Shown here piece after piece: positions 5,432 to 60,608 of a stretch of 64,000 nt of DNA. The notes under the pieces are model-generated. The model was not told the origin of the DNA, did not search any database, and worked only from the letters and a program-made list of their open reading frames with translations. Location: positions 142,591 through 206,590 of the IMG/VR virus record IMGVR_UViG_3300042514_000542. The stretch is one strand, 5' to 3'. Position 1 is the stretch's first letter; every line of letters starts with the position of its first letter. Position numbers and translations under genes: made by a program. Origin of the DNA: a virus.

Positions 5432-6253
5432 ATGAGTACTTTCACTAATCAATTCATTTTAAACACATACGGTGGTATATTACACTCAGATGGAGAGTTG
5501 AATATTTCCCAGAAATCGATCATGTATGACGGATTCGGTAACGAATCCGCATTAACATTGGGTCGAAAAAATAATGGGGCTAGTGTTAGTGGTAATTTAT
5601 CATCAACATCTTTAAATGTCGGACAATTAACTTTCCCGTCTCTTTCAAGTGATGTCAATAACGTGTTGATACAAAAGGCCGATGGAATTGTGGATTTTTC
5701 TGACACCATACCATCATCTCTACTCGCAGATCTAAACCCAAATCCAGAAAATGTATATAATACTATAAAGTCCATTACTGTAAATTCTAAAGGTCTTACG
5801 ACAAAAGTTGATACTTGGGGGAGTTCAAATAATACCATAACATCCACAACCTATAAAGAAAATGCTGGAACACCATTTTCAGTAGTCACCGTAACTGCCG
5901 ATGTATGGACAAAGGTGTTTTTAACGGACGCTATACCACCAGAAGATGTTTCTAGCGTTAAAGCTGTTATACTATACGTTGAACCTACAGGTAATTTAGC
6001 CGCATATAGAAAATCATATACGCTAGTTGCATCTCCAAATCAAAGTGATGTGTATCCAATATATCAAGTCATTGGTGGTGAAGATGCGGGGGGTGGAAAC
6101 GATACTTACGGTATAGGTGTTCAATGTTCCGTCCGTATTGGAGGAATTGGAACAAATTCAATATACATATACCTTAAAAACCCCATCACAAAAAGTAACT
6201 CCGATAATGCGACTTACTCATTTAATGTTCATTTAATAGCTTATCAACGATAA
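5432..6253 (+). CDS. Tail fibre-like protein
   Basis: 273 aa. The N-terminal half has the repetitive Ser/Asn/Gly-rich style of fibre shafts (NGASVSGNLSSTSLNVGQL), also seen in the large fibre at 62320. The C-terminal half (about 140-273) looks like a compact beta head ending in SFNVHLIAYQR. It starts a run of four closely spaced genes (6255, 7281, 8143) that probably share the transcript initiated at the TAAATA motif just upstream. Specific fibre identity cannot be assigned. Confidence 0.6.
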   Translation: MSTFTNQFILNTYGGILHSDGELNISQKSIMYDGFGNESALTLGRKNNGASVSGNLSSTSLNVGQLTFPSLSSDVNNVLIQKADGIVDFSDTIPSSLLADLNPNPENVYNTIKSITVNSKGLTTKVDTWGSSNNTITSTTYKENAGTPFSVVTVTADVWTKVFLTDAIPPEDVSSVKAVILYVEPTGNLAAYRKSYTLVASPNQSDVYPIYQVIGGEDAGGGNDTYGIGVQCSVRIGGIGTNSIYIYLKNPITKSNSDNATYSFNVHLIAYQR

Positions 6254-6254
6254 T

Positions 6255-7277
6255 ATGCCAAATATAGAAATAGCTAAGTTAAAAACAAGAAGAGGCACGA
6301 ATAATCAAAGAAAACGTGTCATCTTTGACCAAGGGGAAATTGTATCTACCGTTGATACTAATAGATTATTCCTTGGAACCGGAACGTTGAGTGGCGGTGT
6401 TGTGATAGGTTCGAAAGTTCATCAACCTATCACTAATTATTCATCATTATCAAATATCGCAGCCGAAGTTGGTGATTTAGCATATGCTAATAATATATTT
6501 TACCAGTTAACGGCATCACCACCATCAAATATCAACAATTGGATGTCTACTGGAATTAAACTAGACAGTGGATTATTCTCGTATGATTCAGATAATACAC
6601 TTAGATTAAATCTATCCTCTCTATCGGCAGTGCATATCAATCCACTAACCGTATCGAATGGAATTAAGATATCTGGTGGGATTCTTCAAAGCAATTTTAA
6701 TACAAAATCTTTAGAAATTTCATCATATCAATTATCCCTAAAGGCTAATGGTATAGATGAAAGAGAGCTAAACTCGACAACTTTTGGTTACGGAATTAGT
6801 GGGGGATCAGGAACTAAAGTAGTTCTGGACGTAAATCCATCACAGTTTCGTTTCAATGGTGATACCCTAAATCTCACGAATTCTACATCCATATCCGCAG
6901 TAGATAATTCATCATTAATTCTAAGCTCTGGTGTAATATCAGTAAATAATAATGGGGCTTCTGGTAGTTATCAATGGCCAAGAATTGTAGTGGATACTTT
7001 CGGTAGAGTGACTACAGCAGAATCATCAATATTAGATGTTTTAACAGGTAATGCATCTCTATCAAGCTATAACCGTAATAATTCACTCTCCGCAATATAT
7101 AATGGTGATTCTATGGGATTATCATCTATAGCAATAACGAGATTTACTGCACTATCATCCGATGGAACAAGCATTATACATCTTTCATCTGCTGGGTTTA
7201 TAACATTCGAAGGAGGGACCACAACAAGGAGTGGAACTTCCGTTGGAAGATTCGCAATCCCAATTTATAGATATTAA
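6255..7277 (+). CDS. Fibre protein, tropism-determinant-like N-terminus
   Basis: 340 aa. Residues 5-50 (KLKTRRGTNNQRKRVIFDQG, then TVDTNRLFLGTG) match a module common at the N-terminus of phage receptor-binding and fibre proteins: an RRGT..QR..V....GE...T.DT.RL..G.G pattern, as in Mtd-like N-terminal domains. The rest is a Ser/Asn-rich beta-repeat shaft with a short C-terminal tip. The start lies 1 nt after the upstream stop, indicating translational coupling. Paralogous at its N-terminus to the next gene. Confidence 0.65.
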   Translation: MPNIEIAKLKTRRGTNNQRKRVIFDQGEIVSTVDTNRLFLGTGTLSGGVVIGSKVHQPITNYSSLSNIAAEVGDLAYANNIFYQLTASPPSNINNWMSTGIKLDSGLFSYDSDNTLRLNLSSLSAVHINPLTVSNGIKISGGILQSNFNTKSLEISSYQLSLKANGIDERELNSTTFGYGISGGSGTKVVLDVNPSQFRFNGDTLNLTNSTSISAVDNSSLILSSGVISVNNNGASGSYQWPRIVVDTFGRVTTAESSILDVLTGNASLSSYNRNNSLSAIYNGDSMGLSSIAITRFTALSSDGTSIIHLSSAGFITFEGGTTTRSGTSVGRFAIPIYRY

Positions 7278-43328: not shown

Positions 43329-44057
43329 ATGAGGATAGCAATATCAGGCACGGCAAATTCCGGTAAAACTACATTAATCGATGCATTTAAAAATCGATGG
43401 CCGATGTATACAACACCATCGAAGACATATAGAGATGTAATTAAGGAGAATAATTTAGAACATTCATCCAATACAAATGACGATTCACAATTGTTAATTC
43501 TAAATTGGATGATGGAGGAGCAGAAAAAGTATAATAAAGATTCGTATGTCATCTATGATAGATGTCCATGGGATAATTTAGCATATACATTACAGGGAAA
43601 TGCATTAGATAAAATTTCAGATACAGTTACAGCCGCAACTATTTCCTTTGTTAAGGAATCCATGAAGGATCTTGATATTATTTTCTGGCTGAAGTATAAT
43701 CCAGCTATTAAAGTCGTAGAAGATGGGCTTAGAGATGCTAATGAAGCATATATCAAACAAACAGATCAGGTATTCCAAGGATTATTTGATCAGTATATGG
43801 ATAATCTTGAAGAGGACGTATTCTACCCGAAAGATGACTGCCCTGCAATCGTTTGTATCGATGAACACTTTTCTACAGTTGATGATAGATTAATGTTTAT
43901 TGGTGAATTTTTAGACCGTAAAGGTGATTTGATTGATGGGGAGAGTATGCTATCCGAAGAAAACCTGTCGATCTTAGAAGGAATTTTAGGTGATCAAGGT
44001 CGTGAAAAGGAAAACGAAGATAGAATTAATAAAATCATTAAAGAATTTAAGAAATGA
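43329..44057 (+). CDS. P-loop nucleotide/nucleoside kinase
   Basis: 242 aa. Walker A GTANSGKTT at residues 6-14 and YVIYDRCPWDNLAYTL near 76-91 (the DR-containing strand seen in deoxynucleoside and dTMP kinases) indicate a P-loop kinase of the thymidylate/AAA_28 type. Residues 105-140 (FVKESMKDLDIIFWLKYNPA) fit the lid and Walker B strand. The C-terminal helix is charged. Probably supplies nucleotides or modifies a sugar precursor; the substrate is not evident. It overlaps the first glycosyltransferase gene by 4 nt. Confidence 0.7.
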   Translation: MRIAISGTANSGKTTLIDAFKNRWPMYTTPSKTYRDVIKENNLEHSSNTNDDSQLLILNWMMEEQKKYNKDSYVIYDRCPWDNLAYTLQGNALDKISDTVTAATISFVKESMKDLDIIFWLKYNPAIKVVEDGLRDANEAYIKQTDQVFQGLFDQYMDNLEEDVFYPKDDCPAIVCIDEHFSTVDDRLMFIGEFLDRKGDLIDGESMLSEENLSILEGILGDQGREKENEDRINKIIKEFKK

Positions 44058-44881
44058 TTAACAAAAAAGAAACCATTGGTGTTGGTATTATAACCAAAGA
44101 CCGTCAACACCTTTTAAAAACTCTCATAAAAAGTCTCAAAGAGTGCGATTGGGATGAAATTGTCATTATAAACGATGGAAATAAAATTGAAGTAGATGGG
44201 TGGAATCATTGGTGTTATCATTATATTCAGAGAAATGATACAAATTTGGGGGTTGGTATATCAAAAAATAAAGCATTGAAATATCTTCTAGATATGGGAT
44301 GTGATCATATCTTTTTAATTGAAGATGACATCTTTATTAAAGATGGATCAGTTTTTGAAAAATATATTGAGACATCTAAAAAGACTGGTATTCAACATTT
44401 AAATTTCTCTCAACATGGGAGAATGAACAAAAAATGGCCAAATACAACACCAAATCCAAGAGTAGTCATAGATTATGGTGATGTTAAATTACCACTATAC
44501 CCTCATTGTGTTGGTGCATTCTCATATTATTCTAGAAAATGTTTGGAGATTGCTGGACTTATGGACGAGCGATATTTCAATGCTTGTGAACACGTTGATC
44601 ACACTTTAGAAATTATCAAAGCTGGGATACATCCACCATTTTGGTATTTTGCCGATATTGAAAATTCTTGGGAATATTTGGGTGATGAGGAATGGTCTAT
44701 TGAAAAATCAACCATATCATCTAATCCAAATCATAAACAAATGATGAAAGATGCCGATGTAATTTTTAGAGAGAAACATGGTTGCGTTCCGGGTGAGATT
44801 AAACTACTTGGAATTGATGAGGTTGGTAAAACTTTAAAACGTATTAAAAATGGGTATGGATCTGACAATAGTAACATGTAA
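44054..44881 (+). CDS. Family 2-type glycosyltransferase
   Basis: 275 aa GT-A protein. VGIITKDRQHLLKTLIKSLK near residues 9-28, DEIVIINDGN near 34, NKALKYLLDMGCDHIFLIEDD near 73-93 with LIEDD as the DxD-type motif. The C-terminal region CEHVDHTLEIIKAGI matches the usual acceptor helix. First of a co-oriented cluster of sugar-transfer genes extending to 50003. Acceptor unknown: virion glycoprotein, modified DNA base or host surface glycan. Confidence 0.8.
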   Translation: MINKKETIGVGIITKDRQHLLKTLIKSLKECDWDEIVIINDGNKIEVDGWNHWCYHYIQRNDTNLGVGISKNKALKYLLDMGCDHIFLIEDDIFIKDGSVFEKYIETSKKTGIQHLNFSQHGRMNKKWPNTTPNPRVVIDYGDVKLPLYPHCVGAFSYYSRKCLEIAGLMDERYFNACEHVDHTLEIIKAGIHPPFWYFADIENSWEYLGDEEWSIEKSTISSNPNHKQMMKDADVIFREKHGCVPGEIKLLGIDEVGKTLKRIKNGYGSDNSNM

Positions 44882-45557
44882 TTATGATACACCTGATTTA
44901 ATTACCAATTTAATGGTGTCTCTCGCTAATACTTGTGATGATATTCCTTATATGTTGGTTATAAGCACAGGAAAATATCCGCTTTTAAACCCAATGAAAC
45001 CGTTATGGCACAACCATAACATTCCACACACATCTCATGGAGATGCTGTTAATGAGGCTTTCAGTTTAGTAAAAACTAGATATATGTTGTTGGTCGATTC
45101 TGATGTTTTATTTCTCAAGGACTTCTATGAGCCATATGAAAAATTCAAAGAGGGTAGATTTGCATTGATGGGTGAAGTTGTTGGTGATCGTGGCGGAAAG
45201 TTAATATATCCTAGAGTTAATCCATGGTTCTGTTTTATTGATTTGGAGCAACTCAAAGAACACAACATTAAATTCTATGACCATTACCGAACCAAAGAAA
45301 TCAAATCTGAAAAGATATATGATATTGGATCTACAATGTTTGAGGATGTTATAAACGCTGGACTAACAATCGGCAATGCCAATATGGAAAATAAATATTT
45401 TAAACACTATGAGGGTATGTCGTGGAGGGTTCAGAAATACAACCCAAACGATGTGGATACTGACATCGATATCGGAGGAACCCACAATAACAAAGCGTTA
45501 TATGATTATGGTCTGAAAGTCAGAGAACAATATGAAAGGGATGTGGTTAAATTATGA
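44850..45557 (+). CDS. GT-A type glycosyltransferase
   Basis: 235 aa. MDLTIVTCNYDTPDLITNLM near the N-terminus and ARYMLLVDSDVLFL-type segment near residues 75-88 (LVDSDV is the DxD site) define a GT2-like fold; the C-terminal region carries a KHYEGMSWRVQKYNP loop. The ATG at 44850 overlaps the previous gene by 32 nt; ATG 44856 is possible. Overlaps the next gene by 4 nt. Confidence 0.7.
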   Translation: MGMDLTIVTCNYDTPDLITNLMVSLANTCDDIPYMLVISTGKYPLLNPMKPLWHNHNIPHTSHGDAVNEAFSLVKTRYMLLVDSDVLFLKDFYEPYEKFKEGRFALMGEVVGDRGGKLIYPRVNPWFCFIDLEQLKEHNIKFYDHYRTKEIKSEKIYDIGSTMFEDVINAGLTIGNANMENKYFKHYEGMSWRVQKYNPNDVDTDIDIGGTHNNKALYDYGLKVREQYERDVVKL

Positions 45558-46303
45558 AGAATACAACATTTATTATTCACTTTAGACGAGATTGCGAGGA
45601 TAGAATTTTCAATTTAAAAACTATTTTAAAATATTTATATTCCAATAATCCTCTTGAAATAATTGTCATCAACGATGATAATGTTGTAGACCCAATCATG
45701 AAATGGGTAAAGACCGAGTATCCAACAATAAAATTGTTGTTTTGTGAAAATGAAGATGAATTTAAAAAATCTTATTGTTTTAATATGTCAGCATTACAAT
45801 CAACTGGCGATGTGTTATGTTTTTATGATGTTGATGTTTTAGTATCTCAAGCACAATTAGAAGAATCTCAAAATTTAATTTTGAGTGGACAAGCGGATCA
45901 CGTATACCCATTTAATGGAATTTTTATAGATGTTAAAAAGAAATTTTTTCCTATGTTTATTGACACATTTAATTTTGTCACCCTAAACAATGAGGTAACA
46001 GATACAACTTTAGGATTTTACAATGGAAATATAAATATTATATCTGATAAATCACCAGGAGGATGTAATTTAATATCAAAAAAAGCATTTCAAAAAATTG
46101 GGGGATATGATGAAAATTTCATTGGGTGGGGGTTTGAAGATACCGATTTCAGGGAAAGATCCAAGAAGAAAAATAATGTTCGGTATTTAGAGGGGGATAA
46201 GTATTTATATCATTTAGAACACATAACCCATTGTGATCAAGATAGATCGCAACAACCATATTATGGTAACAATTACAAACAATTTATACTAAATCAAAAA
46301 TGA
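45554..46303 (+). CDS. Glycosyltransferase with galactosyltransferase-like C-terminus
   Basis: 249 aa. TTFIIHFRRDCEDRIFNLKT and EIIVINDDN form the nucleotide-binding half; LCFYDVDVLV near residues 92-101 holds the DxD motif. FQKIGGYDENFIGWGFEDTD near 179-198 is the GGxDExFxGWGxED signature of the GT7/GT27 C-terminal domain. Overlaps both neighbours by 4 nt. Confidence 0.8.
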   Translation: MKNTTFIIHFRRDCEDRIFNLKTILKYLYSNNPLEIIVINDDNVVDPIMKWVKTEYPTIKLLFCENEDEFKKSYCFNMSALQSTGDVLCFYDVDVLVSQAQLEESQNLILSGQADHVYPFNGIFIDVKKKFFPMFIDTFNFVTLNNEVTDTTLGFYNGNINIISDKSPGGCNLISKKAFQKIGGYDENFIGWGFEDTDFRERSKKKNNVRYLEGDKYLYHLEHITHCDQDRSQQPYYGNNYKQFILNQK

Positions 46304-47571
46304 ACACTAAAACATATGTACAAATAGGTGCGAATGTAGGAAACGATGATTTTTATGCGAAAGTTAAAAACTTAACTGAACCATCGATAATACATTTGAT
46401 AGAACCGAACATTACCTTACATTCAGAACTACTTAAATGTTATGAAGAGTTAAGTAAATTGCATAATATTAGTGTTCATGGTTATGGAATTTCAAATAAA
46501 TCGGAACATGTATGTTTAAATCTATATGATAACTCTGGATTATCATCGATTATAAATAGGAAATCATATAGTCATAAAACAACAGCTATCGATATTGTAT
46601 GTAAGTCATTCGATGTTTTTTGCGAGGATAATCAAATATCACATATAGATTATTTATGTATAGATACGGAAGGATTGGATTATGAGATTTTAAATAGTAT
46701 TGACATAAACAGAATCAATATAGATGTTATTGAATTTGAAGAATGGCCGTATGAAAACGATGACGATAATGACAATTATAAGACTGGTGTGACATTTTTA
46801 CAATGTGAAGTTTTACCTAAATATAAAAATTATATCCTCGATAAACTTATTATCGGAGATATGCCAAGTTTTAGGTTAACAAAAAAGAAACTTTCTATTG
46901 CATTTACAACATTTAATAGTAGTCAATTCATTGTAGATGCATTATCTAATATTATATATAATGATATAGTTGATGAAATTATTATATCAGATGATAATTC
47001 GGATGATATAACAACTCTTAAAGAAATAATAAATAATTTCAACTGTCCAAAAATAAAATTATTCACACATGAATATCATTTAAATGCTAGTGTAAATAAA
47101 TATAAAGCTGTAATGTATTGTAAAAACGAATATGTTGCGTTAATAGATAGTGATAATGTTATTGATAATAGATACATTGATTTGATAGATTTTAAATATG
47201 ATGGTATACAAATGCCATCATATGCTAGTCCGAATTTCGATTATAGTAGTTTAGTTGGTGAGTATGACTTAGAGAGTATTAAATGGTTGATGAATAGTCC
47301 AAAACGAGATTTAACTTTACAATGTCTGAATACAGGGAATTATATTTTTCCAAAGTTTAGATATTTAGAAATAGCTAATAATGCATTAGAATTTAAATCA
47401 TATGGGGTTGATGTTTTTTATATATCTTGTTTATGGTTGCATTCTAATTATAATATAAAAATACTCAAGGGGTTAGAATATTTTCATAGATTAAGACCGG
47501 ATAGTTTGTGGATGAAAACCTCGAACGATAGTAATATAGTGATGGGGGAACTGATCAATAAATATTTATGA
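46300..47571 (+). CDS. Fusion of FkbM methyltransferase and GT2 glycosyltransferase
   Basis: 423 aa in two parts. Residues 1-180 are an FkbM-type SAM-dependent methyltransferase: YVQIGANVGNDDF near 6-18 (SAM loop), IIHLIEPNITLH and HIDYLCIDTEGLDYEILNSI near 119-138. Residues 195-423 are a family-2 glycosyltransferase: KLSIAFTTFNSSQFIVDALS, DEIIISDDNSDD and YVALIDSDNVID near 278-289. It would add and methylate a sugar in coupled steps. The fusion is seen directly in one uninterrupted frame. Confidence 0.78.
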   Translation: MNTKTYVQIGANVGNDDFYAKVKNLTEPSIIHLIEPNITLHSELLKCYEELSKLHNISVHGYGISNKSEHVCLNLYDNSGLSSIINRKSYSHKTTAIDIVCKSFDVFCEDNQISHIDYLCIDTEGLDYEILNSIDINRINIDVIEFEEWPYENDDDNDNYKTGVTFLQCEVLPKYKNYILDKLIIGDMPSFRLTKKKLSIAFTTFNSSQFIVDALSNIIYNDIVDEIIISDDNSDDITTLKEIINNFNCPKIKLFTHEYHLNASVNKYKAVMYCKNEYVALIDSDNVIDNRYIDLIDFKYDGIQMPSYASPNFDYSSLVGEYDLESIKWLMNSPKRDLTLQCLNTGNYIFPKFRYLEIANNALEFKSYGVDVFYISCLWLHSNYNIKILKGLEYFHRLRPDSLWMKTSNDSNIVMGELINKYL

Positions 47572-47622
47572 ATAAACAATTAACCATCGGTACAATATTG
47601 GGTTTTAGAAAGAAAATATAAT

Positions 47623-48237
47623 ATGTTAATAGACTTCAATATATTAAAAGATAAGTATGGTATCACCACACATGGAGTGATACATGTTGGTATGCATAAA
47701 GCAGAGGAATATCCAATTTATAAAAACTGTGGGGTGGAAGAAATTATTTTTGTAGAGGCTAACCGAGATTTGGCGCATGGGTGGGTGAATGATGATCCTC
47801 ATTGTCATGTAGTCCATGCTGCGGTTTCAGATAAAGAAGAAATTATTAAATTCCACATCACCAATAATGGTGAAAGTTCCTCAATTTTAGAGTTGGGTGA
47901 TCATGCTAAGATATATCCACATATTGTAAATGTTGATACTGTTGAAATGAAGACCACCACATTAGATACGATTATTGAAAGGGTTGGTGTTTATAAGTTC
48001 GTATGGAATGTTTTAAATTTGGACATTCAGGGAGCAGAACTCAAGGCTATGAAGGGGCTAACCAATTGGGATAGTATTGAAGCCGTCTTCACTGAAGTAA
48101 ACTATAGAGAGATGTATAAGGGGTGTGGATTGGAACCGGAAGTTACCAAGTTTTTGGAGGATAAGGGATTTGAAAAGGTTGAAGAAGATGATACTGGATG
48201 TGGGTGGGGGGACGCACTATATATTAAAAAGAAATGA
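47623..48237 (+). CDS. FkbM-family methyltransferase
   Basis: 204 aa. GVIHVGMHKAEEYPIYKNCG near residues 19-38 is the SAM-binding loop, EIIFVEANRDLA the next strand, and VWNVLNLDIQGAELKAMKGL near 127-146 the FkbM acceptor-site signature (D.QG.E...L.G). Typically O-methylates sugars on polysaccharides or glycoproteins. It starts 51 nt after the fusion gene, with no regulatory motif seen in the gap, and overlaps the GT11 gene by 4 nt. Confidence 0.82.
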   Translation: MLIDFNILKDKYGITTHGVIHVGMHKAEEYPIYKNCGVEEIIFVEANRDLAHGWVNDDPHCHVVHAAVSDKEEIIKFHITNNGESSSILELGDHAKIYPHIVNVDTVEMKTTTLDTIIERVGVYKFVWNVLNLDIQGAELKAMKGLTNWDSIEAVFTEVNYREMYKGCGLEPEVTKFLEDKGFEKVEEDDTGCGWGDALYIKKK

Positions 48238-48992
48238 AAAATAAATGTTACGTTGATGTTAGTGGCGGTATTGGAAATCAGCTATTTAAGGTGGCTAATG
48301 GATATGCTTATAGCCAAAGGTATAATTTAGAGTTGGTTATAGATCCAACTAATTGGACAGCATCTCAAGGAACTAGTCCAATTCTATACCAATCCAATAT
48401 ATTTAAAAATTTTAACATTATCCCTAGAGGTGAAACTACAGAAATTCATGAAATATCCTTTAATTTTATGGAACTACCGAAATATGATTGGTCATATGGT
48501 GATATATCTCTACATGGTGGTTTTCAATCTCTGAAATATTTTGAAGATTATAAGGATGAGTTTATCAGTCTACTATGTTTACCGAAGGTAGATACATCAT
48601 TTATATCATCGGATGCTAATATAGCGTTTCATATTAGATTTGGTGATTATCAACATTATCCCAAAATATTTGGAGATATTACTAACTATTTCCATAAACA
48701 ATTTGAGAAGTTTTCTCCAGATTTTCAGATTAATGTATTTTCGGATTCTCCAGAATTAGTATTGAATAAATTCCGAAACTATAAATTTAATCTAATAAAA
48801 ACATCATCCGAGTTGAATGACTTGACTTTACTTTCTCTACATGATAGGATAGTTTGTAGTAACTCGACATTCTCTTGGTGGGCATCATTACTGGGTGCGA
48901 AAAAAGAATTGATTATCGTACCCGATAAATGGTTATTAGATCGAGATTGTAAAGATATATATTACGAAGGAATGATAAAAAATGAGTTTTAA
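48234..48992 (+). CDS. GT11 alpha-1,2-fucosyltransferase-like
   Basis: 252 aa (GT11 enzymes are about 290). VDVSGGIGNQLFKVANGYAY near residues 8-27 is the GGLGNQ(L/M)FQ.A motif; IAFHIRFGDYQHYP near 129 is the HxR.GDY donor site; SNSTFSWWASLLG near 206-218 is the characteristic C-terminal motif. GT11 enzymes transfer fucose from GDP-fucose in alpha-1,2 linkage, often on lipopolysaccharide. Donor and acceptor here are inferred. Confidence 0.85.
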   Translation: MKNKCYVDVSGGIGNQLFKVANGYAYSQRYNLELVIDPTNWTASQGTSPILYQSNIFKNFNIIPRGETTEIHEISFNFMELPKYDWSYGDISLHGGFQSLKYFEDYKDEFISLLCLPKVDTSFISSDANIAFHIRFGDYQHYPKIFGDITNYFHKQFEKFSPDFQINVFSDSPELVLNKFRNYKFNLIKTSSELNDLTLLSLHDRIVCSNSTFSWWASLLGAKKELIIVPDKWLLDRDCKDIYYEGMIKNEF

Positions 48993-49329
48993 AGCATCGA
49001 ACTACCTAATTTTCGACCAGTCTAAAAACGAACTGGATAATGAATTACTTGAGGAATTTAATCCTTGGATGACAACCAAAACATTCTCATTTTATAATGA
49101 TGGGGAATTCATTCATTATATCAATGATTTTTTGAATGGTAATACCAACATCTTCAAAACTAAAGAAGAACAATTTAAATATTATGAGAATGTCATTCCC
49201 AGACAGAAATTTAAAAGAATAACTTATATTAAGAAATCTAAAACCGAAAAAGTCGAAGAGTATCCAATTCCAGAATTTTACTCTAGGCGCGAGATCGACT
49301 TATTTGAAAATATAAATATCATCACATGA
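48982..49329 (+). CDS. Hypothetical protein in sugar cluster
   Basis: 115 aa, aromatic- and charge-rich (WMTTKTFSFYNDGEFIHYIN), not recognised. It overlaps the GT11 gene by 11 nt and the following glycosyltransferase by 4 nt, so it is part of the same translationally coupled cluster. Possibly an accessory subunit; no motif supports a specific activity. Confidence 0.5.
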   Translation: MSFKASNYLIFDQSKNELDNELLEEFNPWMTTKTFSFYNDGEFIHYINDFLNGNTNIFKTKEEQFKYYENVIPRQKFKRITYIKKSKTEKVEEYPIPEFYSRREIDLFENINIIT

Positions 49330-50003
49330 TAACTCTAATTACACCAACTGGCGGAAGACCTAAATCATTTGCATTGCTAGAAAAATATATGAGTAGGCAG
49401 TCAATGCCTTTCGATCAATGGATCGTAGTTGACGATTTTGAAACACCAACTCCATGTAATTTAGGACAAATGGTTATTCGTAGGCAACCCTTTTGGAAAC
49501 CTGGTGAAATGACCTTACCTTTAAATATATTAACCGCACTACCATGGGTTAGAGGGGAATATATATTGATCGTTGAGGATGATGACTGGTATAATCCTGA
49601 TTATATTAGAATAATGGTTGACCGATTGCAAAATTATGATCTAGTTGGTGGGGGTATTGCCCACTATTATAATGTGTCAACATTTCGTCATATAATACAC
49701 GGAAATACTCTAAATGCTAGTTTATGTGAAACCGGATTTAGACGAAGTGTTATGGATTCTATCGAGTCATGTATTCAATCTCACATCAATGAAATGTATG
49801 TTGATGGATATATATGGGATTTACCATTGAATAAATTAGTGTTCAATGACTCGGTTAATTGTATTGGTATAAAAGGTATGCCGGGTAGAGGGGGGCTTGG
49901 TCATGGACATCTAATTGATTTTGGATATCTAGACTCAACACCCTTCGATACATTACAAAAATGGATTGGGGATGATGTCAAATATTATAAAGATTTGCGA
50001 TGA
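49326..50003 (+). CDS. Family 2-type glycosyltransferase
   Basis: 225 aa. LITPTGGRPKSFALLEKYM near residues 4-22, QWIVVDDFETP near 32, and YILIVEDDDWYNPDYI near 79-94 (EDDDW is the DxD motif) are classical. GVPGRGGLGHGH-like segment (KGMPGRGGLGHGHLIDFG) near 190-207. Last plus-strand gene of the sugar cluster, convergent with 50019. Confidence 0.82.
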   Translation: MITLITPTGGRPKSFALLEKYMSRQSMPFDQWIVVDDFETPTPCNLGQMVIRRQPFWKPGEMTLPLNILTALPWVRGEYILIVEDDDWYNPDYIRIMVDRLQNYDLVGGGIAHYYNVSTFRHIIHGNTLNASLCETGFRRSVMDSIESCIQSHINEMYVDGYIWDLPLNKLVFNDSVNCIGIKGMPGRGGLGHGHLIDFGYLDSTPFDTLQKWIGDDVKYYKDLR

Positions 50004-50018
50004 TAGTTTACGTAACTA

Positions 50019-50774
50019 TTATCTTTTTTGTAAAAAATCTAGTAGTAATTGATTGTAATCAATATTCCATTTCGGAGTTAGTGTAATATCTCCGGTGGGT
50101 ATCTTTCCTTTTATTCTTAGTTCTTCTATATGTCTTGAGTGCCTGACTATAATACTCTCTCTATCTGCTGTGTCTGCACCTTGACCAGACATATGATAAC
50201 TTCTATCAGCCCACAAATACATCCAAGAAACCTCCTCATCTGGAGGCTCTGCGAGAACCACCCTACATTGATATTCATTCTTTAGTTTTACGACAAATGA
50301 CATATCATATCCAGCATTTTCTAATTCATGTTTACCTGATTTTTCCCATATATTTTTAGTATAAACAATACCAGAATTACCCAAACTATGGATCGCATCA
50401 ACCTTTTTATAATTTACGGCTGCACCCTTTTGCCAATGTAATAAATCATATCCAGGAAAATATTTATTGATATTTTCCAAATGGTTTGGTAGTGCGATAT
50501 CATCATCGTCCCAAACCGCTATCGTGTCATATTTACAGTTATCGACCGCAAAATTCTCCTTTTCACCAATAGTTTCGAATGTTCTATTAAGATTAATTAT
50601 TTTAACATTTGGATGGTCGAAATATAATTTTTGCTCTGGGTAATCATTCACGATTACCATCTCTCGCTCACCATCATATTCCTGATTTAAAAAGCTGAAT
50701 AAAGATTCCTCAAGTAAGTCCACTCTACCGTATGTAATACACTTACATGAAATAGGTATTTTATCATTCATCAT
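50019..50774 (-). CDS. Family 2-type glycosyltransferase
   Basis: 251 aa from the ATG at 50774 (50798 is possible but includes the TAAATA motif). KIPISCKCITYGRVDLLEES near residues 4-23, EREMVIVNDYPEQ near 36 and TIAVWDDDDIALPNHLEN near 81-98 (WDDDD is the metal site) identify GT2. The C-terminus has SYHMSGQGADTAD. Opposite orientation to the rest of the cluster, with its own late motif, so probably acts late, perhaps on virion components. Confidence 0.8.
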   Translation of the reverse strand: MMNDKIPISCKCITYGRVDLLEESLFSFLNQEYDGEREMVIVNDYPEQKLYFDHPNVKIINLNRTFETIGEKENFAVDNCKYDTIAVWDDDDIALPNHLENINKYFPGYDLLHWQKGAAVNYKKVDAIHSLGNSGIVYTKNIWEKSGKHELENAGYDMSFVVKLKNEYQCRVVLAEPPDEEVSWMYLWADRSYHMSGQGADTADRESIIVRHSRHIEELRIKGKIPTGDITLTPKWNIDYNQLLLDFLQKR

Positions 50775-50782
50775 ATCGGAGA

Positions 50783-50788
50783 TATTTA
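50783..50788 (-). promoter_or_regulatory. Late-promoter-like TAAATA (minus), 8 nt before ATG
   Basis: GTAAATA on the minus strand, then 8 nt to the ATG at 50774 or 11 nt to that at 50771. Confidence 0.4.
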
Positions 50789-50838
50789 CTCGTAACAATA
50801 ATTAATCAATCTAAAATCTCTTTATTAAATCTAGTATA

Positions 50839-55157: not shown

Positions 55158-56252
55158 GTGAAAACATATTCCTATTTCCGAGAAACCCTTAACACCCTCA
55201 CACAATTCACCGCAGCGTTCGATGATTGTGTAGTGTGGAGGTATGATAAAAATTTCGAGAAGAAGGAAAAAATCAATGTTCGATATGTATTTGGTCCAAA
55301 AAATAGGGTATTGTACGACATAGTTAATCAGTCTAAGAATATCACTCTTCCTGTTATTTCAATTGAGCAGACTAACGTTAAAAGAGATTCTAGTCGAATC
55401 CAATTTAAGGATCAGAAGATAACCCGAAGAAATCTTAATGATGATAGTATTTCAAGGGTTCCAAGTCCCATACCAGTCACCATGGATCTTAATGTATCCA
55501 TGGTAGCTAATTATAAAGAGGATATTGATCAAATAGCTGCAAATATTCTACAGTGGTTTAATCCATATATAATTATATCTTGTAAGATTCCAGAAGAATT
55601 TGGAATGGATTTTATAGATGAAATCAGAACCGAGGCTACTTGGGGTGGTTCAGTGGATTACGAAAACCCAACGAATATCGCGGCATCGGACAAATATAAA
55701 ATCGTTGGGAATACCACTTTTAATGTTAAGGGTTGGATATTCCCAGCATTAGAAACACCCCAAGCACCTATTTACGTTGTAAATACAAATTTTGTATCGG
55801 TATCGAGCGGTTCCATACTAAATGGATATGATGATTTCTGGTCATTATCCGCTAATAATACGACGGATTCGATCTTAATCTCCGCATTCCCAGAATTTAC
55901 AAATTATTTTATAAATGGTCGCCCATATGATGAGTTAATTTTAAACGATATCAATGATAAAACATTTACATTTTACGGGAAAAGATTTGATTTTAATAAC
56001 ACTTGGTATCTAAGTTCAAATGTAGTAATACCCGAATTAGTATATACCGAAATAGACACCGCTAAATTTCCTACCATATCTGCTTATAAATTACCTGATA
56101 GTGTTATCACCACTGTAAATGATAATATAGTATCAATTAGTTTAAGTTCGGGGTATTTGAATTTGAGTGGCGGATATGTTTTTATCACAGCCAATGATGC
56201 GGGATGGGGTCTGTCAACTGGAATTTTTATAAACTCTGATAATTTATTTTAA
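55158..56252 (+). CDS. Tail sheath completion protein, gp15-like N-terminus
   Basis: 364 aa (T4 gp15 is 272). NVRYVFGPKNRVLYDIVNQS near residues 36-55, then ISRVPSPIPVTMDLNVSMVA near 100-119 and IAANILQWFNPYIIISCKIP near 130-149 fit the gp15 tail terminator/sheath-stabiliser pattern of T4-like phages (force YGPK..., P.P....L.., multi-dimensional strand and the Y/F-x-P loop). The C-terminal 150 residues are extra, with a fibre-like beta domain. Late motif at 5 nt. Gene symbol 15 is probable but not certain. Confidence 0.6.
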   Translation: MKTYSYFRETLNTLTQFTAAFDDCVVWRYDKNFEKKEKINVRYVFGPKNRVLYDIVNQSKNITLPVISIEQTNVKRDSSRIQFKDQKITRRNLNDDSISRVPSPIPVTMDLNVSMVANYKEDIDQIAANILQWFNPYIIISCKIPEEFGMDFIDEIRTEATWGGSVDYENPTNIAASDKYKIVGNTTFNVKGWIFPALETPQAPIYVVNTNFVSVSSGSILNGYDDFWSLSANNTTDSILISAFPEFTNYFINGRPYDELILNDINDKTFTFYGKRFDFNNTWYLSSNVVIPELVYTEIDTAKFPTISAYKLPDSVITTVNDNIVSISLSSGYLNLSGGYVFITANDAGWGLSTGIFINSDNLF

Positions 56253-56301
56253 ATGGGATTATAATTTTCTACAATGGTCAGAAAATTATATATAATTAAG
56301 T

Positions 56302-56307
56302 TAAATA
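56302..56307 (+). promoter_or_regulatory. Late-promoter-like TAAATA, 5 nt before ATG
   Basis: TTAAATA followed after 5 nt by the ATG at 56313. Confidence 0.6.
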
Positions 56308-56312
56308 ATTAT

Positions 56313-57416
56313 ATGGCAATAGATTTAGGCGATAATCCAGTGGGAATCCCCCCCACAGCAGGTGAGGCGACCCAAATTAGAACGGTTTTAGGGTTGGGTA
56401 ATGTTAACAATACATCTGATCTAGATAAACCGATCTCGACAGCCACACTATCGGCACTTAATTTAAAAGAGACTCCCGCTGGAGCAGCCGCGCAAATCGC
56501 AGCATCCGCCCTTACTGACGCACAAGTGGGCAACCAAGTCGGTAACGAGCTTGTGGCTACTTTTTCAGCGTTGGCCGCTGTATCCACACTAAATCCCGGC
56601 TGTCTGGTGTTGGCCACTTCTCGTCCGAATGCTGCTAACGTCATAATCAGGACATCAACTGGCTACGCTCGACCTATTCTCGCTGCCACTGGAGCATTGT
56701 CCACTCAGGTTGGGACAGGGGTTGTTGGCGCACAGTTAACAATCCCCATTGCTGCTGGTGCTGCCATGCGTGCAATGTCGGTAATCAGTGTTGCGAGCGG
56801 TGGCTCTGTCCGTAGTGGTAACATCACTGACATTAATATTTCTGATGTGGGCTTACACAGTATGCCCACATCGCACTTAACAGCTTTGACTGCGCTGACT
56901 GTTATTAACAGTAGGTTGCCCAGCTTTGACGGGTCTGGGCTTACTTCGCTCACAATCCTAGCCTTAAACAGCAACAATCAACTCCGCTCCTTTACCAAGG
57001 GAACAGGATTAGAATCACTGTTGAGCCTAACGTTAAATTCTAATAGACTGACAACGTTTTCGGGAGTGGGACTTAGCGTATTAAGAAATCTCTTTTTAAA
57101 TAATAACCAACTCACAACTTTTGACGCTACTGGATTAGGTGAGCTTAGGACATTAAACGTTTCAAACAACACAACCCTGAATAGCTTTGTTTTGTCCAGT
57201 GTCCCAACCCTAGTTTCTCTTCGTAATGAGGATATTTCGACTTTTGCAGTGGTTGCAAATGGTTGCTCTTTAAGTGCGCAAGCAATCAATGACTTCTTCA
57301 CTGCACTCCCGCCAGCAACAAACGGAGCAGCAACTCTAGTCTTCAACGGAAACCCAGGAAGTGCAACTGCCAATGCATCCATTGCCACCTCCAAAGGTTA
57401 CACTGTATCCCTCTAA
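56313..57416 (+). CDS. Leucine-rich-repeat fibre protein
   Basis: 367 aa from the ATG at 56313, chosen over 56274 because it lies 5 nt after TAAATA and begins the fibre-type MAIDLGDNPVGIPPTAGEAT. The N-terminal 150 residues resemble phage fibre attachment regions. Residues about 205-310 hold four to five leucine-rich repeats (LTSLTILALNSNNQL, LRNLFLNNNQLTTF, LRTLNVSNNTTL). GC content and codon use are clearly higher than in neighbours, indicating acquisition. Likely a receptor-binding or host-interaction fibre. Confidence 0.65.
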   Translation: MAIDLGDNPVGIPPTAGEATQIRTVLGLGNVNNTSDLDKPISTATLSALNLKETPAGAAAQIAASALTDAQVGNQVGNELVATFSALAAVSTLNPGCLVLATSRPNAANVIIRTSTGYARPILAATGALSTQVGTGVVGAQLTIPIAAGAAMRAMSVISVASGGSVRSGNITDINISDVGLHSMPTSHLTALTALTVINSRLPSFDGSGLTSLTILALNSNNQLRSFTKGTGLESLLSLTLNSNRLTTFSGVGLSVLRNLFLNNNQLTTFDATGLGELRTLNVSNNTTLNSFVLSSVPTLVSLRNEDISTFAVVANGCSLSAQAINDFFTALPPATNGAATLVFNGNPGSATANASIATSKGYTVSL

Positions 57417-57427
57417 AATAAATCATC

Positions 57428-58327
57428 ATGCAAACTAAAATCACCATCGCGCTTGGAGCGTCACACGCCGCAGAGGTATCCAGACTCTCCACCTCCATTC
57501 CTGAGTTGCTGATCGTAGATGAGGAAAACCCTCTTTATGAAGAGCGACATGATGATGTCACGGTCAATGCGCTACTCACCAAGTCTGGCTTTGGCAAGTT
57601 CCTACCAGAAGACAGAGATGGAGCAGTTTTCCTTTGCGACACCGACCTCCAGCCTGTGGGTGGCGGAAACCCATTCGACACCTTCCCCGATATGGGTGAT
57701 GCCGACATCGCCTTTGTTGCATATCCCGGACGATTCTTTTTCCCACCTACCGAAAGCTACCAAGCAGCGAGCTACGCTGTCCTTGGGAAAAAGCTCAACT
57801 CAGGAATGGTCTGGTTCAAGAATCACGAAACAGCAAAAGCTATCTCTGCTGCATGGGAGGCAAAATATCTAGAGGATATTTCCGAGGGTGGTGCTATGGC
57901 TGACATGACTCATAAAAATGATGAGGTATCGCTGATGGCGGTGCTTGTTTCTGGCGACTGGAACTACCACTGGCTGGAGCAAGTCTGGAATAACCAATGG
58001 GAACCTAGCGAGAACGACATCATTCGTCACTCGCACGATGTCCCGACTACATCCGCGCCACAAAGCGAACCAACGCCTGTCCCTGAATCCCTCGCCAACT
58101 GGCGCGTTAAGGCGGTTCTTGACATACAGGGACTTACATCAACTGTGGATGCTGCCATAGATGCTATGGTAGACAGTAATGAAAAAATTATTATTTCAAG
58201 AGCATGGAACGGTAATGGTGATGTCCTTCGTCACTCCCCAACCGTTAATTCTTTCATGGCTATTCTCGGCCTCACCGATGCTCAGGTGGATGATATGTTC
58301 CGTTTGGCTGATACTTTCAATCCGTAA
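57428..58327 (+). CDS. Glycosyltransferase-like protein fused to a tail-associated domain
   Basis: 299 aa. Residues 1-205 resemble nucleotide-sugar transferases of the GT8-like type: VFLCDTDLQPVGGGNPF near 67-83 has the DxD motif, KKLNSGMVWFKN near 119-130 the LNSG motif and HKNDEVSLMAVL near 161-172 the (N/D)DE motif. The C-terminal 75 residues (IQGLTSTVDAAIDAMVDSNE, VNSFMAILGLTDAQVDDMFR) are the short helical domain often found at the end of phage tail proteins. GC-rich like the LRR gene, with which it was probably acquired. Confidence 0.6.
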   Translation: MQTKITIALGASHAAEVSRLSTSIPELLIVDEENPLYEERHDDVTVNALLTKSGFGKFLPEDRDGAVFLCDTDLQPVGGGNPFDTFPDMGDADIAFVAYPGRFFFPPTESYQAASYAVLGKKLNSGMVWFKNHETAKAISAAWEAKYLEDISEGGAMADMTHKNDEVSLMAVLVSGDWNYHWLEQVWNNQWEPSENDIIRHSHDVPTTSAPQSEPTPVPESLANWRVKAVLDIQGLTSTVDAAIDAMVDSNEKIIISRAWNGNGDVLRHSPTVNSFMAILGLTDAQVDDMFRLADTFNP

Positions 58328-58480
58328 GTTCTTTATCTTTTTTGGCCAAATCATAAGATCCTTTGAGAGTTTTCGACGTAAATGTCGATGGATAGATATT
58401 ATCAACACAATTTATGTATTACCACTAATCAATAATGGGTGAATATATGTAGTATATGGTTGTTATTTGACAATTCATAC

Positions 58481-58486
58481 TAAATA
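58481..58486 (+). promoter_or_regulatory. Late-promoter-like TAAATA for portal, 5 nt before ATG
   Basis: CTAAATA followed after 5 nt by the ATG at 58492. The preceding 160-nt gap (58328-58480) holds a TTGACA at 58467-58472 and no gene. Confidence 0.6.
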
Positions 58487-58491
58487 CTTAA

Positions 58492-60318
58492 ATGGCAGGT
58501 ATTCAGAATAATCCTAATAATAGGAGTAATTTATCCAGAGACGGTAAATCTGGAATGTATGATAGGTCGATGCAGACTTATCTCAAAAACCGTGTTCCAT
58601 ATAATTATAGTGTTTTAGATTCGGATGAATCCAAAAATACAAAATATAAATATTTCCAAAAAGTTGGAATGCGTAGACCAGAGGCTCTTGCTAAGAACTC
58701 TGTAACTCTCAATAATCCATATAATAACACAGCATTCTCTGCAATCGAAAGAGATAAGACTTTCGGTGATATTATGTATGCAAGCGCATCTGAAGATAAA
58801 CCGGGACGCTTGAGGGATTATAGATCTATGGCAGCATTTTCCGAAATTGCTGATGCTCTAGATGAAATTTGTGATGAGACAATTAATCCAGATGAAAATG
58901 ATGAGATTGTCCTTTTAAAATTTAAAAATACGGATTTGGAGTCGGATAAGAAAAGCGAAATCCAAGAAGAATGGTATAGGTATATTGAATATTACGACTT
59001 ACATAATAATGGATGGCAATACTTTAGACAATTCTTAACTGAGGGTGAATTGTTTTTTGAACAAATAATTCATGATGAATTTACCAATGAGGGTGTTTTA
59101 GGCATTATTAATATGCCAGCAGACCTCATTGATCCGGTATATTCAAATATTCAAAATATGTTGGTTAAGGGATTCCTATATCAAAAACCAATCTTCGATC
59201 CCAATGATCCCAAGAAAGTGGAAAGATATGAACCAATTCCTTTAGAGGAAAACCAAGTAGTTTATATTAATAATTCTGCATATAATGACACAAAGGATTT
59301 CATTATACCATTTATAGAAAATTGTCGTAGAGCTTATAGACAATTATCGATGATCGAAGATGCTGTAGTTATTCATAGAATGGTTCATGCACCTCTAAGG
59401 TTTGTATTTAATGTTGACGTTGGTACACTTCCTGTACCACAAGCAGAATCATACTTGAGAAAATTACAAGCACAGTATTGGTCATCTAAAACATTCGACT
59501 CTGACCAAGGGGATATTGTTAAAAAATATAGCCCACAATCAACATTGGATAGTTATTGGTTCGCCAAGAGACAAGGACAGGAACCGACCACAGTTAGTGA
59601 AATCGGTGGAACTCCGGGTCTTGGAGAGCTTCATGACTTGATGTTCTTCATCAAAAAACTTTACAGATCGCTTAAGGTTCCGACTTCAAGATTAGACCCC
59701 GAAGATTCGTTTCGTGATGGGACTGATATTCTTAGAGAAGAATTAAAGTTTGCCACAATGATCATGAGACAACAGAAGAAATTTGCTTCTGGCCTCAAGA
59801 GAGGATTTATAACACACCTCAAACTTCGTCATATGTTTGAGCAATATGATTTAACAGAACAAAATATTAATGTTGTATTCAATGCACCATCAAATTTCTA
59901 CGATCTTAGAAATAATCAGAAGATGGAACTTAAGGTTAATTCTTATAATAATCTTATGTCAACTCAAAAGGTTTCTGATACATATGCCAAGAAAAAAGTT
60001 CTTGGTTGGAAAGACAAAGATATTCTAGCAGATCGTGAATTGCGTAGAAAAGACGCAGAATTAGATTGGGAATTACAACAGATTATGGCAATGGGTCCAA
60101 GCTGGAAAGAGCAGTTATTACAACAAGCCCAAGGTGGCGCACCCGAAGCTGGTGATGATCTAGGTGGTATGGGCGGCGGAATGGGTGCTGGCGGTGCTGG
60201 AGGTTTACCACCTTCGTTCGGTGGTGGTGAAGCAGCAATTGGTGGTGATGAAACACTTCCACCTAATGCTGGTGTTGCGCCAGAAATGCCTATGGTTCCA
60301 GAAGAACCTCCAGCTTAA
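58492..60318 (+). CDS. 20: Portal vertex protein, T4 gp20-like
   Basis: 608 aa (T4 gp20 is 524). Dodecameric channel for DNA at the head-tail vertex. Recognised by FSEIADALDEICDETINPDE near residues 119-138, NGWQYFRQFLTEGELFFEQI, VYINNSAYNDTKDFIIPFIE near 258, IHRMVHAPLRFVFNVDVGTLP near 295-315 (part quoted) and KKLYRSLKVPTSRLDPEDSF near 387-406. The C-terminal 70 residues are Gly/Met/Pro-rich (GGMGGGMGAGGAGG), longer than in T4 and probably disordered. Confidence 0.93.
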   Translation: MAGIQNNPNNRSNLSRDGKSGMYDRSMQTYLKNRVPYNYSVLDSDESKNTKYKYFQKVGMRRPEALAKNSVTLNNPYNNTAFSAIERDKTFGDIMYASASEDKPGRLRDYRSMAAFSEIADALDEICDETINPDENDEIVLLKFKNTDLESDKKSEIQEEWYRYIEYYDLHNNGWQYFRQFLTEGELFFEQIIHDEFTNEGVLGIINMPADLIDPVYSNIQNMLVKGFLYQKPIFDPNDPKKVERYEPIPLEENQVVYINNSAYNDTKDFIIPFIENCRRAYRQLSMIEDAVVIHRMVHAPLRFVFNVDVGTLPVPQAESYLRKLQAQYWSSKTFDSDQGDIVKKYSPQSTLDSYWFAKRQGQEPTTVSEIGGTPGLGELHDLMFFIKKLYRSLKVPTSRLDPEDSFRDGTDILREELKFATMIMRQQKKFASGLKRGFITHLKLRHMFEQYDLTEQNINVVFNAPSNFYDLRNNQKMELKVNSYNNLMSTQKVSDTYAKKKVLGWKDKDILADRELRRKDAELDWELQQIMAMGPSWKEQLLQQAQGGAPEAGDDLGGMGGGMGAGGAGGLPPSFGGGEAAIGGDETLPPNAGVAPEMPMVPEEPPA

Positions 60319-60608
60319 TCACAAAAGCTTACACAGTTGAACGCTGAACTATAATAATACTTAGTTCCAGAATTCGATTGTAAATTTAACCCAGAATCAC
60401 TCGGAACATTACATTCTAGAAAATAATATTCAGTCGGTATATTGGTTGTAACTTGGGGATAATTATCTTCTTGTCCCCATAAAATGAATTCATTCGCAGA
60501 TATACGGTAATATCCAGTGGATTTATTGGAGTTTATATTCACCCCTGATGTCGATGGAACACCACACGACAGTTCGTAATAAACGGAGCCAGAATTACTT
60601 TCATACAT
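60315..60608 (-). CDS. Small Cys/Tyr-rich late protein with internal duplication
   Basis: 97 aa, opposite strand within the structural cluster. Two halves share a pattern: YYELSCGVPSTSGVNINSNK near residues 10-29 and YYFLECNVPSDSGLNLQSNS near 61-80, so the protein is a tandem duplication of about 50 residues. It has five Cys. The ATG at 60608 is exactly 5 nt after TAAATA, supporting real late expression. Possibly a small surface or decoration protein; no family recognised. Confidence 0.6.
   Translation of the reverse strand: MYESNSGSVYYELSCGVPSTSGVNINSNKSTGYYRISANEFILWGQEDNYPQVTTNIPTEYYFLECNVPSDSGLNLQSNSGTKYYYSSAFNCVSFCD

Follow-up and report, generated by a model that had tools for sequence, protein, structure and literature searches.

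The gene at 57428–58327 (plus strand, ATG start, 299 aa) encodes a bipartite protein in which a transferase-like domain precedes a helical module whose sequence relatives lie beside tail-fibre genes, and together with the leucine-rich repeat (LRR) tail-fibre gene in front of it this gene forms a two-gene island in a large T4-like phage. Our working reading, to which we give a probability of roughly 0.4, is that the protein is a fibre-dedicated GT-A-like transferase, which would dock through its fibre-assembly module and glycosylate the LRR tip, the two genes making up an exchangeable receptor-binding cassette. The window, by which we mean the whole 64,000-nt stretch of DNA that was analysed, covers positions 142591–206590 of a 206,590-base virus record.

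The two-gene island and its insertion site

The gene context of the ORF is that of a large T4-like phage. To the left lies a gp15-like tail sheath stabilizer gene (55158–56252, plus strand; Pfam T4-gp15_tss, E=6.9e-17) and to the right a gp20-like portal gene (58492–60318, plus strand; Pfam Portal_T4, E=3.3e-89), with head–tail adaptor and tail assembly chaperone PHROGs farther out. The LRR gene and the ORF stand between them as a GC-rich island (56274–58330, plus strand), which holds the three highest GC values (0.507, 0.440 and 0.502) among 106 segments of 600 nt; the fourth highest value is 0.427 and the median of the window 0.34. The same is seen at third codon positions, where GC reaches 0.54 in the transferase-like domain, 0.42 in both LRR residues 69–380 and the C-terminal module, and 0.34 in the LRR anchor, compared with 0.27–0.29 in the three genes flanking the island (gp15 0.29, portal 0.27).

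Relatives, defined as viral loci with a related portal, were taken from 80 of the 91 confirmed portal loci and include many near-duplicates; gp15 and portal were both found in 74. Among the matches listed, 39 of these 74 have a gp15–portal gap no longer than 122 nt, 24 have one of 332–950 nt and 11 one of more than 1000 nt, and the closest relatives (L034 and L035–L037) belong to the group with the shortest gaps, the portal of L034 being 90% identical and its gap 52 nt. These sizes indicate that the gp15–gp20 site is empty in close kin and takes insertions in others. The composition of the island and the short gap in relatives together argue that the two genes were acquired as one unit, and on these grounds we regard their horizontal origin as established.

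The interval between gp15 and gp20 (window 56253–58491; loci L034–L113) is an insertion hot spot. Among ten genes scanned from other inserts, that of L048 encodes a tail spike (phrog_2234, E=2.1e-18) and is the single match to a tail PHROG; the first gene of the L050 insert matches the window LRR fibre at its N terminus (50% over 48 aa, E=2.8e-5), and the remaining eight, three of them from L050, matched no PHROG. Behind the portal of another relative, L049, the anchor IDLGD-PVG-PPT, which is shared with the window LRR fibre, fronts a different adhesin gene. There (L049:3218–5289) a 550-aa repeat adhesin with NMQNMF/LQSVPLFNTA repeats comes after a short anchor gene (IDLGDIPVGTPPT). This LRR-type adhesin has a C-terminal cap similar to that of the window LRR fibre and no transferase neighbour, which suggests that such fibres can do without one in some cases. 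Also behind the portal, small minus-strand ORFs with YYYLSCGVPSTSG/YYFLKCGV repeats occur in the window (60315–60608) and in L049 (5546–5914), their neighbours being on the opposite strand.

The first gene of the island (56274–57416, plus strand, 380 aa), for which an alternative start is possible at codon 14 (56313), was identified as an LRR tail fibre by Pfam, by PHROGs and by its homology to a second copy described below. Its product consists of an N-terminal fibre anchor, a middle domain, leucine-rich repeats and a short C-terminal cap. The repeats match Pfam LRR_4 (E=6.4e-6) and LRR_8 (E=1.6e-5), each slightly below the curated cut-off, and the N terminus has matches among the PHROGs of minor tail proteins and tail fibres (phrog_13892, E=1.2e-8; phrog_35419, E=5.1e-5). 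The LRR stretch is rich in serine and threonine, which make up 0.27 of it in the window and 0.34 in the second copy, with 0.10–0.24 in twelve other window ORFs; for a fibre the window value is not extreme.

Of the 68 window ORFs that start with ATG and reach 120 aa (overlapping frames counted), only 2 have a Shine–Dalgarno-like core upstream, a scarcity that we take to resemble Bacteroidota and that may hint at the host of the phage. Against this hint can be set kin of the cassette in Verrucomicrobial MAGs and kin of the LRR anchor in Flavobacterium phages.

The C-terminal module and its kin

A helical C-terminal domain of a kind common in tail proteins, recognized by a GLTDAQ(V/I)D..F pattern, had been proposed from the sequence of the ORF, and the proposal was borne out. 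The module (58043–58324, plus strand) matches phrog_6034 (E=8.4e-15, over about residues 205–296) and phrog_14311 (E=3.2e-7), both PHROGs of unknown function, and has GLTDAQVD at residue 281 as part of GLTDAQVDDMF (residues 281–291; 58268–58300). AlphaFold run on the single sequence gave a mean pLDDT of 34.5 for the whole ORF; a 22-row alignment improved the C-terminal module alone, where pLDDT is 87–96 per ten-residue block from residue 211 to 299 and five short helices are predicted (residues 224–233, 237–246, 250–262, 271–280 and 284–294).

Relatives of the module in viral contigs amount to 30 copies at 29 loci, 27 of them distinct in sequence, in proteins that are mostly 96–190 aa in total and have varied, mostly short N termini. 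A same-strand frame of at least 120 codons ends within −32 to +18 nt of the start of the module gene in 28 of the 30 copies, a count that is biased toward finding neighbours, most of all in GC-rich contigs. Ten ORFs upstream of module genes in metagenomic phages, picked for a length above 350 aa, were scanned, and six matched tail or tail-fibre PHROGs, two matched families of unknown function and two matched nothing. Among seven annotated phages, the gene directly 5′ of the module gene is a tail fibre, tail or tail collar gene in six (Percy, Alfacinha1, P26059A, phiN3, HHBS14_1 and phiM9) and hypothetical in AXY1. The module protein itself is called a ‘tail fiber assembly (like) protein’ in the Sinorhizobium phages phiM7 and phiN3, which is annotation and not experiment, and is annotated as hypothetical in phiM12 and phiM19. 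Twenty structural neighbours were found in BFVD at E≤0.001, among them a Rhizobium phage P106B protein annotated as a ‘putative tail fiber assembly-like protein’ as well as proteins of Caulobacter phage Percy and Sinorhizobium phage phiM9. From these sequence comparisons we regard the kinship of the module with fibre-adjacent proteins as established, and a tail association of the ORF product is well supported. The original prediction had cast that association either as a sugar enzyme carried on the virion or as a chaperone that glycosylates the neighbouring LRR fibre; gene order and the kin of the module uphold the association, and the renewed pairing with an LRR fibre in an unrelated phage (see below) favours the chaperone-like version.

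Among 386 genomes of the order to which an Akkermansiaceae MAG belongs, 19 carry the module according to a 25-row profile. On a contig of this lake Akkermansiaceae MAG (L134), the C-terminal end of an LRR protein (42.9% identical to the window LRR across 35 aa, E=5.6e-4) is followed after 33 nt by a 139-aa protein with the module (47% identical) and without the transferase domain, which makes the transferase look like an N-terminal addition. In a genome of the Akkermansiaceae family (L173:1486–2268, minus strand) the module (45% identical) is fused to a different N-terminal domain of about 170 aa; an identification of that domain as a sulfotransferase, made by eye only, found no support in Pfam, PHROG, PDB or phage searches. 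One contig (L033) carries two module genes, each right after a frame of about 390 codons, like tandem fibre-partner pairs. Two further candidates were rejected, one (L143) as a second LRR example, its upstream fibre not being significantly similar to the window LRR (E=1.2), and the ‘tail fiber assembly-like protein’ of Cyanophage S-2L as a member of the module family, as it matches the N-terminal part only. The best VIA-align scores, Z 4.6 for a guanylate cyclase (over the module) and 3.7 for a restriction controller protein, were read as a common helical arrangement. The module profile matched 15 PDB chains at E≤1, nearly all of them artificial alphaRep proteins (best E=0.0022), and among PDB chains no sequence link from the module to the tail chaperones Pam3 gp25 and Mu Tfa was seen.

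In its plan the ORF resembles the Tfa-type chaperones (Tfa of phage Mu, gp25 of myocyanophage Pam3 and the phiN3/phiM7 proteins), the genes of which lie right after a fibre gene and the products of which are bipartite, with a conserved C-terminal helical domain and an exchangeable N-terminal domain; the phiN3/phiM7 proteins align with a C-module protein across both parts. In Pam3 gp25, according to passages of PMC9608196, the fibre tip is held by a variable N-terminal domain and trimerization is driven by a helical C-terminal domain that is conserved, and the authors state there that chaperones combine distinct N-terminal domains with a conserved C-terminal domain. The ORF departs from the Tfa type in its N-terminal domain, which is about 203 aa long and transferase-like, whereas that of Tfa is a small β-sandwich. 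The proteins of phrog_6034 and phrog_14311 share the module with it, and the enzyme-like domain of about 200 aa is an addition in the ORF. This likeness to Tfa-type proteins lends itself to an alternative explanation, namely that the protein is a non-catalytic chaperone of Tfa/Pam3-gp25 type, or a tip adhesin, which has taken on a transferase-like fold as the N-terminal domain that binds the fibre. Such a domain would fold or cap the LRR tip and may perhaps bind host sugars without transferring any. The gene position and bipartite plan, both as described for Pam3 gp25 in those passages, speak in its favour, as do the highly diverse N termini of other proteins with the module.

The transferase-like domain in two phages

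Residues 1–203 (57428–58036, plus strand) form the transferase-like, putative GT-A domain. GT-A enzymes carry a DxD motif, an NSG motif and a late acidic motif in that order, with strands preceding DxD and NSG and a helix following NSG. The motifs that had been read at the outset as those of a nucleotide-sugar transferase are indeed present on the plus strand, as DTD at residues 71–73 (57638–57646), LNSG at residues 123–126 (57794–57805) and NDE at residues 164–166 (57917–57925).

A search for NSGxxWFK returned 18 stretches, one of which encodes a true relative (phmmer E=7e-90); it is a 6,685-base contig (L211) with siphophage-type tail genes (tape measure and minor tail proteins). Its homologue of the ORF (5661–6527) is 53% identical over 291 aligned columns and 66% identical in the transferase-like domain, and all three motifs, including the DTD that answers to the DxD of GT-A enzymes, are invariant between the two. 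Because they are identical in a domain that is otherwise only 66% identical, the motifs are conserved and not chance letters. The homologue begins 12 nt downstream of a 418-aa LRR fibre gene on the same strand (Pfam LRR_8, E=1e-11; BppL_N-like anchor, E=9e-5, below cut-off); in the window the corresponding distance is 11 nt. The L211 fibre aligns to window LRR residues 69–380 with 44% identity, and the N termini of the two fibres are unrelated. The L211 C-terminal module matches phrog_6034 only at E=0.0024 and is 24% identical to that of the window. GC content is raised in this cassette too (0.41–0.48 versus 0.33–0.42).

Comparison of the two copies codon by codon ranks the transferase-like domain as the best conserved part of the cassette (203 codons, 66% amino acid identity, pN 0.22, pS 0.79 with synonymous sites saturated), ahead of the LRR part (306 codons, 52%, pN 0.37) and the C-terminal module (24%, pN 0.54), with pS at 0.76–0.79 across all parts. 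By this measure the domain is evidently under strong purifying selection. The comparison further indicates that the distal LRR fibre, or tip, and the transferase-like domain travel as one unit, and that the fibre anchor and the C-terminal module are phage-specific ends; the pairing of the LRR-fibre and transferase-like genes is well supported from both loci. The same data weigh against the non-catalytic chaperone, since the three transferase motifs survive in a domain that differs at a third of its residues and is better conserved than the fibre that it would have to chaperone. We consider that explanation unlikely, though it is the strongest of the alternatives.

L211 is the sole homologue of the domain that was found, so that the cassette copies number two. 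A viral scan with a two-homologue profile returned 55 stretches, L211 being the one confirmed; the domain's own peptides gave three stretches in viral contigs and the whole protein 33 in genome contigs, none related. At E≤10, tblastn against phages gave no match to the domain, and plasmids gave just six Thermus records (E=2) with annotation unrelated to it. Aeromonas phage CF8, the sole match of the L211 protein among phages (E=6), was set aside, the matching protein not being transferase-like. The domain was found in none of the 50 records behind the loci (0/50, a set without a positive control). Weak matches occurred in 32 of 387 Verrucomicrobial-phylum genomes at E≤0.5 (best 0.011), and in the family four genomes out of 254 matched a two-row profile at E≤0.1, the best at 0.035; the motifs are missing in the frames of six (of 20) of the phylum loci, three (of 4) of the family loci and L150.

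Neither the window ORF nor the L211 homologue matched any Pfam family at E≤10. The transferase-like domain gave no significant Pfam or NCBIfam family match, no match to a Tfa domain in Pfam or PHROGs and no sequence relative in the PDB; with no curated GT family match, it is filed in no named GT family. In the 22-row AlphaFold model its pLDDT is below 55 and mostly below 50, the alignment there being one or two sequences deep, so that structure prediction, proposed as a check on both parts of the protein, succeeded for the C-terminal module and not for this domain. In that low-confidence model strands stop at NSG and right before DTD, with a helix after NSG. The order and spacing of the motifs, with this placement of strands in the low-confidence model, would thus follow the GT-A arrangement. 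Foldseek of the model against the PDB gave no match at E≤0.001. For hhalign, a set of 20 proteins was used, comprising three bacterial GT-family proteins (one of PF01501 and two of PF04488; PF03407 matched nowhere, controls included, and so supplied no template), six from the phage's GT/FkbM cluster and 11 other window proteins. The probabilities were 0.1–0.2 for the three bacterial proteins and 0.1–0.7 for all 20, the top score of 0.7 belonging to a non-GT control protein of the window, and transferases did not rise above controls; the best local alignment to one PF04488 protein (L219) is in register at the DTD of L219. The ORF thus shares with the GT-A families Nucleotid_trans (PF03407), Gly_transf_sug (PF04488) and Glyco_transf_8 (PF01501) the order of DxD, NSG and late acidic motif, and differs from them in having no significant family match and hhalign scores at control level.

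The absence of family and fold matches is what would be expected if the domain were some other α/β enzyme or a binding domain that has DTD, NSG and NDE by chance. The invariance of the motif residues in L211, and a motif order, spacing and strand placement (the last in the low-confidence model) like those of GT-A enzymes, make this the least probable of the explanations considered here. We conclude that the domain probably has sugar transferase chemistry. The original prediction of a transferase accordingly holds as regards the motifs, their conservation and the order of strands and helix in the low-confidence model, and it gained nothing from family or fold comparison.

A possible role in fibre glycosylation

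An LRR fibre beside a putative sugar enzyme that bears a fibre-assembly-type module suggests that the phage may glycosylate its own receptor-binding fibre. According to our working hypothesis, the first gene of the cassette would provide an LRR tail fibre whose N-terminal anchor is specific to the phage, and the second, probably co-translated with it, a bipartite fibre partner made of an N-terminal GT-A nucleotide-sugar transferase and the C-terminal helical module. DTD would hold the metal and the sugar nucleotide, LNSG would line the acceptor/donor pocket and NDE would lie near the end of the core. By way of the C-terminal module the enzyme would reach the nascent fibre or the site of fibre assembly and there attach a sugar, probably through an O-linkage, to serine or threonine residues of the LRR tip before or during assembly. 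That the product glycosylates the LRR fibre we infer from the pairing of the genes and the nature of the module; the fibre as acceptor and the timing are likewise features that we infer, and the enzyme may or may not stay on the virion.

Elsewhere in the window (44054–50798) the phage has a cluster of sugar-related genes, including several of GT2 type (some under the Pfam cut-off), Glyco_transf_7C, FkbM methyltransferases and a GT11 fucosyltransferase-like gene, which suggests a general investment in glycans. It is conceivable, then, that the ORF encodes a sugar transferase with another target, such as a host envelope glycan, the phage DNA or another virion protein, and that it is held near the tail by its module or was merely transferred along with the fibre. 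Besides the GT, FkbM and GT11 genes of the cluster, the phage glycosyltransferases with DNA, serotype and virion targets that are cited in parts of PMC12619734 would agree with such a role. The strict pairing with an LRR fibre in both copies and the fibre type of the module argue for the LRR fibre instead, and we judge a different target quite unlikely.

Glycosylation of the LRR tip would have a parallel in mycobacteriophages, for which a passage of PMC12619734 reports phage-encoded virion glycosylation, with glycans on the capsid and tail tube (Freeman et al., 2023). In both cases a phage enzyme would modify its own virion; here, by contrast, an LRR fibre is the proposed acceptor, and the enzyme, encoded as its partner, bears a fibre-type module. 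Literature searches, which lay mostly outside subscription journals and preprints, returned nothing on LRR tail fibres and receptor binding or on LRR proteins together with a phage glycosyltransferase, and within the same limits no such cassette appeared in the titles or opening abstract lines of work on phage glycosyltransferases, tail fibres and chaperones.

It is interesting to speculate on what such a cassette might do. One possibility, which we put forward tentatively and at less than even odds, is that phages swap a ‘self-decorating fibre’, that is, an LRR tip with a dedicated glycosyltransferase tethered by a fibre-assembly module that the phage itself supplies, and that the sugar on the fibre tunes or masks receptor binding; the enzyme would then be a catalytic fibre chaperone. 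If so, large phages that swap host range would take over a fibre and its glycosylating enzyme together, enzymes would join the proteins built on the bipartite plan of fibre chaperones, and glycosylation of a phage receptor-binding tip would become testable in a two-gene expression system. The kinship described above marks phrog_6034 as a fibre-associated module, the N-terminal partners of which can be mined for other fibre-modifying enzymes.
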